Positions 28,684-38,868 of a stretch of DNA of 51,471 nucleotides are shown here, in pieces (the stretch's first letter is position 1; each line of letters begins with the position of its first letter). A program made the translations under genes and the position numbers. Location: NCBI RefSeq assembly GCF_937863485.1, contig NZ_CALMFY010000001.1, forward strand, positions 1-51,471, given 5' to 3'. Source of the stretch: an uncultured Nostoc sp. (lineage in GTDB: Bacteria > Cyanobacteriota > Cyanobacteriia > Cyanobacteriales > Nostocaceae). The notes below the pieces were generated by a model, which was not told the DNA's origin, made no database searches, and saw only the letters and a list, made by a program, of their open reading frames with translations.

Positions 28684-30039
28684 TTACAATGCCCCAGCTG
28701 CTGTTTTATCTAGTACCCCTCCACCCAAGTGAGTAGTGATGTTCATCGCTTGCAGTACTGGTAAACCATCTATTCCACAAGGGTAGTCGATAACACTGAC
28801 TGCGCCATTACCCTGGCGAAAATTCCAGAAATTTTCCAGCGATAAACCCAGAATGTGACAAAGCAAGGTTTTATTAGTAGCGTCATGAGCTACTACTAAT
28901 ACAGTTTTGAGTTGATTAGTTAATGCTGCTTGCACAATTGATTCCCAAGCTGCAACGCTGCGTTCCCACACCTGTTGCAAATTTTCCCCTTCAGGCATTT
29001 GCACTTGGGTCGGAACTAACCGCCAGCGTTGCAACTCTCCCGGAAACTCTTGCTCTATCTCTGCTTCTAATTTTCCTTCCCAGAGTCCGTGGCTGATTTC
29101 TCTTAAACCATTTTGCAATTCTAAGTTTATATTAGGATGGTGTTTTAAAATAATCTCTGCTGTTTCTTTAGGGCGCAGCATTGAGCTACTTACAGCAAAA
29201 TCAATCGCTACCTCTTGGAGAAATTCGCCTGCTTTTTGCGACTGTTGTCTACCATTGTCGTTGAGGGGGACATCAATTTGTCCTTGAAACCTGGTTTGGC
29301 GATTCCAGTCGGTTTCGCCGTGACGCACCAATAATAACCGTATTCCTTGATGATCCGGTCGCAATGAGGGTAGAGATTCTCCGGTGTGTTGCGTCTGATT
29401 TAAGGATTCTAGCTGGACTGGTTCCCCCAATCCTCCAGCAAAATTTAGTACGGTGATGCCACAGTTAGATTGCTGTATTGAATGGTAGCGACTTGCAGGG
29501 ATGGATAGCGCTGTGCTAATCAGGGCACGATTAATGCCGTTATGCCCCACTATGAGAATAGTTTCGCCTTGATGGTGGGACGACAAAATTTCTTGCCAAA
29601 ACTGCCGTGCTTGTTCGTATAAAGCAAGAACAGGAAAATGTTCTCTTGTTCCTTGTGCATCATTCAGCAGCATCCGCAGTTCGTCGGGGCGTTGATGCCA
29701 AGTGCGGTAGTCTTCGGCAAACTTTTGCTTGACTTCGGCACTCAGCAGTGCTTCCCATAAAGGCAAGTCGATTTCCAGCAGTAAATCAGAAACTTGGAGT
29801 ACAGCAGACTGTTCACGATGAGTAGCTAATTCACTATGAATAATATCTGCTGTGTGTTTTGCTCGTTGCAGGGGACTGCTGTAAATCGCATTAAATAAAA
29901 TATTGCTGAGGGCTTTGCCAACTTTACTGGCATCGTTACGACCTTTTTCGGTTAATGTTGACGCATCAGTGCGCCCCTGAATACGCCGCTCGGTGTTATA
30001 ACCGCTTTGACCGTGGCGCACAATGATGACACGAGTCAT
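28684..30039 (-). CDS. Two-domain histidine phosphatase (phosphoglycerate-mutase-like)
   Basis: The protein has 451 residues with two complete phosphoglycerate-mutase-type domains in tandem. The first has VIIVRHGQSGYNTERRIQGRTD (residues 3-24) and a later HNGINRAL. The second has LLVRHGETDWNRQTRFQGQIDVPLN (about 236-260) and AHDATNKTLL near 395. Each RHG histidine is the phospho-acceptor. Such fused proteins are common in cyanobacteria and are often annotated as 2,3-bisphosphoglycerate-dependent mutase, but substrate is unproven. A GGAGG motif lies about 10 bases before ATG 30039, confirming the start. Confidence 0.85.
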   Translation of the reverse strand: MTRVIIVRHGQSGYNTERRIQGRTDASTLTEKGRNDASKVGKALSNILFNAIYSSPLQRAKHTADIIHSELATHREQSAVLQVSDLLLEIDLPLWEALLSAEVKQKFAEDYRTWHQRPDELRMLLNDAQGTREHFPVLALYEQARQFWQEILSSHHQGETILIVGHNGINRALISTALSIPASRYHSIQQSNCGITVLNFAGGLGEPVQLESLNQTQHTGESLPSLRPDHQGIRLLLVRHGETDWNRQTRFQGQIDVPLNDNGRQQSQKAGEFLQEVAIDFAVSSSMLRPKETAEIILKHHPNINLELQNGLREISHGLWEGKLEAEIEQEFPGELQRWRLVPTQVQMPEGENLQQVWERSVAAWESIVQAALTNQLKTVLVVAHDATNKTLLCHILGLSLENFWNFRQGNGAVSVIDYPCGIDGLPVLQAMNITTHLGGGVLDKTAAGAL

Positions 30040-37578: not shown

Positions 37579-38058
37579 TCAGGTAAAAACATGTAGAAAG
37601 TTCACATTATCTAAAGGTAAATGATGCAATTGACGATTAATTTCATCAGCCGCAGCTAATCCAGAAAGCATCGCACCTTCTACAAGATTGCCGCCACACC
37701 AATCACCACAACAAATTAAAGGTAGGGGAGTTCCGGCAGACAAAAATGTTTCGTGCCAAGGACGGCTAGGAAAGGCATAACGCCAACGATGTACTTGCAT
37801 CCATTCAGGAGTATTCAGCCAAGGAAGGGACAGAGATTCAGCTGCTCGTTGCAACATATACTGTCCGGCAGGTTGTAAATCCTGTGATTCTAGATGACGT
37901 TGAGCAAAATCAGCGCTACTTTGCACCACAAAATGTGGCTGTTGAGGGTTAGGACGCTTGCTACTGTCCAAACCAATCCATGCTAAATCGGCATCATCCA
38001 CAAAAGTTAGAGCTTTCCACTCAGGGAGGGCTTGGGATGTGGGAGAATATCCAGCGAT

Positions 38059-38085
38059 GTCTGACGACAAGCCGCTTTGCGTCTA
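38059..38085. mobile_element. 27-nt HIP1-targeted element, copy 3 in the flavoprotein gene
   Basis: GCGAT (38054-38058), then 27 bases beginning GTCTGACGACAAGCCGCTTT, then CGC. Without it the gene reads YPSISAIAGYSP. In the gene frame its first codon is TAG. Confidence 0.9.
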
Positions 38086-38337
38086 CGCACTAATCGAAGG
38101 ATAAAATTCTACAGAACGCAGATTGTCAAGAAAGACTGCATCCAATACACTTTCACCCAAAGGTGACAACAGCATCACAGCTTGGGGTGCAGGAATGGCG
38201 ACGACTATAGCTTTTGCAGATAATTCTTCGTTGCTAGATTCAAGAGTCAGACGCCAGCTATTTTCAGGAGTTGGGGTAATAGCAATGACACGCTGATTCA
38301 GTAATATTTCTAAACCTGGAGCGAGAGATTTAGCGAT

Positions 38338-38364
38338 GTCTGACGACAAGCCGCTCCGCGTCTA
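38338..38364. mobile_element. 27-nt HIP1-targeted element, copy 2 in the flavoprotein gene
   Basis: Same element as 38059-38085 except two bases in one arm (CCGCTCCGCG in place of CCGCTTTGCG). Removal restores GCGATCGC and the reading EGMSAIAKSLAPG. In the gene frame its first codon is TAG. Confidence 0.9.
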
Positions 38365-38480
38365 CGCACTCATTCCCTCAGGTGCAACATAACGCGGACT
38401 GCGGTTTTTGGGTTCAGATAAAAAAGCATCTGCTGTGAGTTCGTAAACTTCCTCTGTCCAAACTTCAAGGATATGGCGCG

Positions 38481-38507
38481 TAGACGCAAAGCGGCTTGTC
38501 GTCAGAC
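38481..38507. mobile_element. 27-nt HIP1-targeted element, copy 1, reverse orientation
   Basis: Here the same 27 bases are in the opposite orientation, between GCG (38478-38480) and ATCGC. The gene frame passes through without a stop. Removal restores GCGATCGC and reads EILRSRHILEVW. Confidence 0.9.
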
Positions 38508-38868
38508 ATCGCAATATTTCCACAAAACGTCCCAACAATTCACCCTTTGGCTTCAGGTAACAAGCCCCATGATCCGCCCAAGTTCCATGCAAGCGACGTG
38601 TAGCCAATCTTCCTCCCAAACCACGGGACTTTTCCACAACTAGCACCGAATATCCAGCTTGACTTAACTGCTGGGCGCAGACTAAACCAGCTATTCCGGC
38701 ACCAATTACTGCAATATCAGTCATGAGTCAATAGTCCTTGGTCATTAGTTATTAGTCATTGGTCATTAGTTATTGGTTATTATCAAAGGACAAAATTACT
38801 ACTAATGACTGCTGAAAGCTAATAGTAGAATAAGGTACAGAAAGCTGCACGGAACGGAGGAAGGGAAA

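Follow-up and report, generated by a model that had tools for sequence, protein, structure and literature searches.

Three copies of a 27-nucleotide repeat, likely SDR5, fill every HIP1 site of a renalase-like gene in Nostoc and most likely inactivate it

The DNA analysed here is a 51,471-nucleotide stretch of a contig from an uncultured Nostoc sp., hereafter the window. It contains a gene for a renalase-like FAD-dependent oxidoreductase that is interrupted by three short inserts, s1, s2 and s3. The features of the locus, numbered on the window, are the following.

37579..38724, minus strand: interrupted gene for a renalase-like FAD-dependent oxidoreductase, identified by Pfam, structure search and fold comparison; start ATG at 38724-38722 and stop TGA at 37581-37579, minus strand.
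38362..38724, minus strand: first open piece of the gene, which runs for 120 codons up to the amber of s2 and corresponds to the 120-aa database protein P0002.
38481..38507, minus strand: insert s3, 27 nt, in HIP1, within codon 73; left part of the split HIP1 at 38478..38480 (plus strand), right part at 38508-38512.
38338..38364, plus strand: insert s2, 27 nt, CC variant, in HIP1, after residue 111; left part of the split HIP1 at 38333..38337 (plus strand), right part at 38365-38367.
38059..38085, plus strand: insert s1, 27 nt, in HIP1 (GCGAT^CGC), after residue 195; left part of the split HIP1 at 38054..38058 (plus strand), right part at 38086-38088.

GCGAT and CGC lie on either side of each insert and rejoin to GCGATCGC every time; in all three copies the octamer is split between bases 5 and 6, or 3 and 4 when counted on the opposite strand. 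The sequences of s1 and s3 are identical and their orientations opposed; s2 differs from them at two bases, both central. Deletion of s1, s2 and s3 leaves a single frame of 354 codons. An earlier note on this DNA had located the three 27-nt inserts within HIP1 and proposed that their removal restores one renalase-like frame, and it was exact on both counts. It had also read TAG as the first codon of two copies, which are s1 (complement of 38083-38085) and s2 (complement of 38362-38364); the third, the inverted s3, is open in the gene frame and reads CLTTSRFAST. That the inserts lie "always in frame" is true and at the same time automatic, because 27 is a multiple of three; it is the reading of each copy that decides between a stop and an open insert. 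No insert-like match arose in 100 shuffles of the window.

The read-through translation of the interrupted gene matches the Amino_oxidase and NAD_binding_8 domains and aligns with a bacterial renalase (PDB 4zcc) at an E value of 5e-25. When an intact orthologue was modelled, its best match among solved structures was again bacterial renalase, which confirmed the renalase fold and the FAD-binding domain. The fold is shared at a TM score of about 0.8 with 4zcc, but the identity is just 27-28%, and the function, for a renalase the oxidation of dihydro-NAD(P) isomers, is predicted from fold and sequence.

The history of the inserts can be followed across the genus. In a search of 53 genomes, our own included (G000), a full-length stop-free orthologue is present in 30, a stop-bearing one in two (our own with two TAG codons, G022 with one) and fragments in five; no orthologue was found in the remaining 16, two of which, G006 and G045, are just 72% and 85% complete. 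Altogether 23 of the 53 genomes, our own among them, lack the gene or have it only in fragments or in interrupted form. The 29 intact orthologues that were aligned (G017, the thirtieth, was left out) contain none of the three inserts, and the note's own proviso, that orthologues with the same residues would speak against insertion, does not apply. At the corresponding sites these orthologues have HIP1, in a shifted or mutated form in some, and most of the empty sites are perfect octamers. The nearest relative, G048, with 98% protein identity, is empty at all three sites. Comparison of filled with empty sites confirms an insert length of 27 nt and reveals no duplicated target bases. For the window's sites, insertion is a simpler explanation than loss.

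The number of targets that the gene offers is small. In 20 of the 29 aligned intact orthologues, the gene has exactly three HIP1 octamers, at nucleotides 212, 330 and 582; four have the first HIP1 displaced by two bases, and five retain two of the three sites. In the window's gene every one of the three is occupied. Because 43 HIP1 octamers in the window are still unfilled and our genome (7.52 Mb) holds only 17 copies of the element within three mismatches, random placement hardly accounts for three copies in a single gene. Both s1 and s3 are the sole copies of their exact form in that genome. Elsewhere in the window, between 17503 and 17615, five HIP1 octamers are spaced in 21-base steps (one step is 42), an arrangement that resembles a HIP1-containing tandem repeat.

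By its site, its genus and its length, and not by sequence comparison, the 27-nt element is likely SDR5. Elhai and colleagues reportedly described SDR5 in 2008 as a small dispersed repeat of Nostoc, and their abstract is said to report a conserved secondary structure with compensatory changes. SDR5 copies range from 21 to 27 nt, and the element here measures 27. Recent mobility is indicated by inserts at sites that are empty in the 98% relative. According to a passage of Elhai 2015 (PMC4390886), SDR5 sits within HIP1 between the third and fourth nucleotides, and GCG^ATCGC is what we find on the reverse strand of the element in all three copies. In the features compared we see no difference between SDR5 and the element of the window; what is special here is that three copies, ambers among them, saturate a single gene.

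A pattern scan returned 632 copies distributed over all 53 genomes, from 5 to 27 per genome. We examined the context of 257 distinct copies for which 60 or more flanking bases were available on both sides, a non-random sample that is complete for G001-G005 and G007, includes 17 of 19 copies from G000 and 11 of 15 from G048, and is otherwise made up of best matches or clusters. Within this sample 198 copies lie in a perfect HIP1, 241 in a HIP1 within one mismatch, and 16 at two or more mismatches, so the copies commonly found outside HIP1 that would have told against the note's account are not what this sample presents. The two central bases of the element are its most variable and fall in the loop of a possible stem formed by positions 15-17 and 21-23. 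Among 73 of 118 distinct forms picked by hand, the more divergent ones being mostly omitted, this stem has C-G replaced by U-A in two rows and G-C by A-U in three. With the same hand-chosen 73 of 118 forms, none of 500 shuffles reached five two-sided cells and 62 of 500 reached two pairs. The score of the stem in these 73 of 118 hand-chosen forms is 0.166, against 0.156 when it is slid by -2. The short stem is suggestive only, as judged from these alignments, and covariation across the whole element proved weak.

Other small mobile DNAs share some of these properties. MITEs are larger and have terminal inverted repeats and target duplications; our element leaves no target-site duplication. To our knowledge, neither the Rickettsia palindromic elements (RPEs) nor REPINs and REP sequences are directed to HIP1, and we know of no sequence relation between RPEs and the 27-nt element. 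RPEs, in the part of the source concerned with them (PMC10969869), are mobile repeats that make in-frame fusions within protein genes, a likeness to our element, but they measure about 150 bp, as against 27 nt. The same source mentions MITEs as natural inactivators of cyanobacterial genes, in the mcy cluster, and small mobile DNA that disables genes is a further likeness (PMC10969869). REPINs and REP sequences with their RAYT transposase are described, in a portion of another paper (PMC3116915), as tiny non-autonomous mobile DNA that occurs in N. punctiforme as well; unlike the 27-nt element, REPINs are there REP doublets linked to a RAYT.

Copies of the element cluster. Counted by eye, 25 pairs of neighbouring copies lie within 2 kb of each other in 15 of the 53 genomes, compared with 2.0 expected under uniform placement. 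Among the 26 close pairs in the loci that we fetched, seven have a flank in common, as local duplication could explain, and these seven include all four identical pairs. The 19 pairs that share no flank differ by one to five bases, as distant pairs do (0.018 identical), and copying from neighbours is therefore not supported as a general rule. The identity of s1 and s3 is striking, given that they are not next neighbours. The note had left the choice between successive events and local preference; more than one event is supported, and preference stands in part, since copies are clustered but seven of the 26 pairs share a flank. Mechanistically, the element may reach HIP1 by a site-specific step, possibly a cut in HIP1 combined with an RNA or DNA donor copy, and it would tend to settle near other copies.

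Two of the three inserts are not confined to the window. G022 carries the s2 copy at the same site, alike in variant and orientation, and Nostoc mirabile CHAB5784 (G013) carries the s1 copy at the same site (the identical insert is in L128). In the gene tree our genome groups with G048 (100/100), G013 with G007, G052 and others, and G022 elsewhere; each shared copy requires two changes on this tree, and trees in which the carriers are forced together are rejected. We lean towards short exchange or repeated hits at the same site, in preference to repeated precise loss. Exchange, meaning that s1 (with G013) and s2 (with G022) were swapped between species by short-tract recombination with no fresh insertion, comes close to an even chance. 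Lineages that are not sisters agree in site, orientation and 27-mer variant, and independent agreement is unlikely because the forms of the element are diverse: in our biased sample the s1 form accounts for 28 of 257 copies and the s2 form for 10. What weighs against exchange is the shortness of the common tract, since the carriers first differ at -10 and +28 around s1 and at -14 and +18 around s2, and no gene-conversion tract was detected beyond some tens of bases.

The same short tracts bear on a second explanation, in which the shared copies are separate hits on the same HIP1 sites acting as insertion hot spots. The flanks mostly match each species' own lineage, two changes per site are enough, the gene offers just three targets, and the clustering described above points in the same direction. 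With the frequencies of the biased sample, however, a match of variant and orientation on two occasions would have a chance of about one in a thousand, and we consider separate hits unlikely. Less probable still is that the copies are ancient and were lost precisely, with HIP1 restored, in most lineages. The mostly perfect octamers at empty sites and a patchy sharing that extends to other sites would fit such a history, but it demands some six to ten losses per site (counted by hand on the tree) against two gains, excision has not been directly observed, and of the 80 loci in a scan of named genomes, with up to seven mismatches allowed, only that of N. mirabile has an insert inside the gene.

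Whichever route brought the copies together, the question posed by the note was whether the gene is dead or read through, and the balance has now tilted to dead. Our main reading is that three copies of an element, likely SDR5, fill all the HIP1 sites of the gene, that an in-frame TAG comes with two of them, and that the gene, which on account of these two ambers most likely yields no working enzyme, is a young pseudogene; we give this a probability of about 0.85. Two ambers would have been tolerated in a gene that so many members of the genus lack or hold in pieces.

Evidence of decay comes from relatives that carry the inserts. The s3 peptide, whole or altered, occurs in four truncated database proteins: P0002 (the window's own, three contigs), P0003, P0004 and P0008. 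The search that yielded them was confined to proteins of about 66-210 aa, and their shortness is partly by construction for this reason. The last three are known from protein sequences alone. D51 and G37, invariant across 31 aligned relatives, are altered in two of them, as D51N in P0003 and as G37E in P0004. In P0008 both residues are unchanged, about 40 codons that separate s3 from s2 are lost, s3 is fused to the tail of s2, and the protein ends at the position of the s1 stop. P0004, from a contig of 43,904 bases, has in addition a seven-residue (21-nt) insertion nested within its s3 repeat. Another renalase-like protein, P0007, has a large internal deletion that starts from the s2 position and joins GMSA to MLSGLAAADE. 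None of the 120 full-length relatives among the matches listed contains the element peptides (148 below threshold; 7,997 candidates scored). For the 163-aa C-terminal piece of the window's gene no near-identical database protein was found, the best reaching 88%. For the s1-bearing gene of N. mirabile, residues 1-153 were not found within 5.5 kb around the locus, and the gene lodged inside it is presumably a transposon-type TnpB.

A read-through product, if it were made, would probably not work, because in the model of the intact orthologue L055 (pLDDT 86.6) s1 maps to the middle of strand 188-198, beside the invariant A197, and s2 to helix 110-114, near the invariant G108; s3 falls at the end of helix 62-73. 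Substitution rates were not used in support of pseudogene status: the window's branch has 5 non-synonymous and 11 synonymous changes, a proportion that does not differ from that of intact pairs, and no raised ratio was found on this branch or on that of G022. A ratio that is not raised fits a young event and continued use equally well. All five non-synonymous changes lie past residue 195, a region in which intact pairs also vary more.

Reading of the ambers would call for a suitable tRNA. RF1 is present in our genome, and none of its 66 tRNA genes has a CUA anticodon (ARAGORN; 150 of 517 first-look candidates scored). One tRNA-like gene has a UUA anticodon, a score of 44 bits and an anticodon stem that contains a mismatch; it lies on contig C197 of G000 at 29762-29831 (L416), with a HIP1 octamer within that stem. 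The matching genes of G028 and G035 (L414, L415) have CUA, which brings the gene to three of the 53 genomes, and the renalase-like gene is intact in both of these bearers of the CUA form. The neighbour in G000 and G028 is a gene that we take to be aldehyde-dehydrogenase-like. From its anticodon the tRNA-like gene, as UUA or CUA, is a candidate natural nonsense suppressor, and the odd UUA tRNA of our genome could in principle allow a weak reading of TAG. Amber suppression by a CUA tRNA was set aside, none being found among our own 66 and the form being seen only in the two other genomes. No literature match was found for tRNA arrays with suppressors.

That the gene is alive, with a tRNA suppressing its ambers so that a protein of 381 residues, three nine-residue inserts included, is made, is for these reasons very improbable: the frame does run on across all three inserts, the substitution ratio is not raised and the UUA gene with its two CUA counterparts exists, but RF1 is present, CUA is lacking among the 66 tRNAs, the UUA gene is low-scoring with a mismatched stem, s1 would disrupt a modelled strand, of the three insert-bearing relatives two have substitutions at otherwise invariant positions and one a deletion, the copy in N. 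mirabile is wrecked, and both CUA genomes have intact genes.

The inactivated gene is one outcome for an element of this size; the phase in which copies are read across the genus suggests another. The palindromic HIP1 can receive a copy in either orientation and 27 nt leave the frame unchanged, so that a copy has six possible readings, two of which contain a stop in the common form of the element. Among 432 HIP1 sites in mechanically taken ORFs of 200 or more codons, with the renalase-like gene loci excluded, the octamer begins at codon position 1 in 232 cases, at position 2 in 125 and at position 3 in 75, and these counts predict a stop in 41% of random insertions of the common form. The baseline is 0.438 with the renalase-like orthologues and 0.413 to 0.416 without them, and with the lower value the depletion of stops persists. 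Of 92 copies that lie in a perfect HIP1 in ORFs, 21 are in stop-capable phases (p 3e-4) and 14 read a stop (p 1e-7). Counted as distinct sites, 12 of 70 are stop-reading against the 41% expected (p 3e-5), and when the copies of the renalase-like gene are removed, 10 of 68 against 0.41 (p 3e-6). At position-1 sites the amber reading is found at 6 distinct sites and the open one at 25, or at 4 and 25 without the renalase-like gene (p 1e-4). For codon position 2 the orientation that gives a stop is no less frequent than the other (9 versus 7 distinct sites), but stop-free forms of the element are enriched there, at 9 of 15 against 56 of 242 elsewhere (p 0.003, for copies and not sites). In expressed genes, open readings would persist, and stop-bearing ones would be purged or mutated.

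The repeat is thus probably translated in other genes, as judged from their reading frames. One example is fmt, for which one full-length methionyl-tRNA formyltransferase scores above the cut-off in each of eight genomes, with partial relatives below it. In four of the eight (G002, G005, G021 and G022; loci L417, L419, L423 and L424) the protein contains an in-frame VWRQAA[LP]RL, with TGG in place of the TGA common in the element; precisely those nine residues are absent from Fmt of G000, G048 and G013, and ten are absent in G003. An LptD-like/DUF3769 gene (Pfam on one) bears the in-frame repeat at one site in five genomes (L005, L175, L147, L156 and L226), where the central dinucleotide is TT in three and CC in two. 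Further in-frame hosts include histidine kinases and a condensation-AMP enzyme. A copy in the amber phase of an alpha/beta-hydrolase gene in three genomes (L007, L218 and L407) has its TAG mutated to TTG. In G013, loci L169 and L176 share a copy with in-frame TGA within ORFs of over 900 codons, the gene having apparently been duplicated after insertion, to judge from the two loci. A literature search by title and abstract opening, the text of Elhai 2008 lying outside its coverage, found no coding copies of SDR5.

Taken as a whole, the element, likely SDR5, is ordinary and its position extreme: it saturates a dispensable gene and has most likely killed it; the saturated gene is a striking new case of a kind of element already described. 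More generally, in genes of consequence the same repeat appears to be read as nine extra residues of the protein. We put forward tentatively, at somewhat less than even odds, that a HIP1-homing 27-nt element is at once a serial gene killer, filling neighbouring sites until a dispensable gene is saturated, and a donor of nine-residue inserts, their stops edited away, in indispensable genes (Fmt, LptD-like) and other active ones (the condensation-AMP enzyme, kinases). If this is true, no smaller mobile element would be known to contribute protein sequence. The note's suggestion of insertions among the smallest in-frame mobile ones is a better fit for Fmt and the other genes than for the renalase-like gene that inspired it. 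At this locus close relatives supply alleles with and without the inserts, the copies lie in both orientations and belong to two variants, and the same sites are occupied in more than one lineage; it thereby bears on the question of how a 27-nt sequence moves. The phase test is a simple genome-wide way to separate insertions that are probably translated from dead genes, and together with the Fmt case it suggests that such elements can supply short protein inserts under selection.
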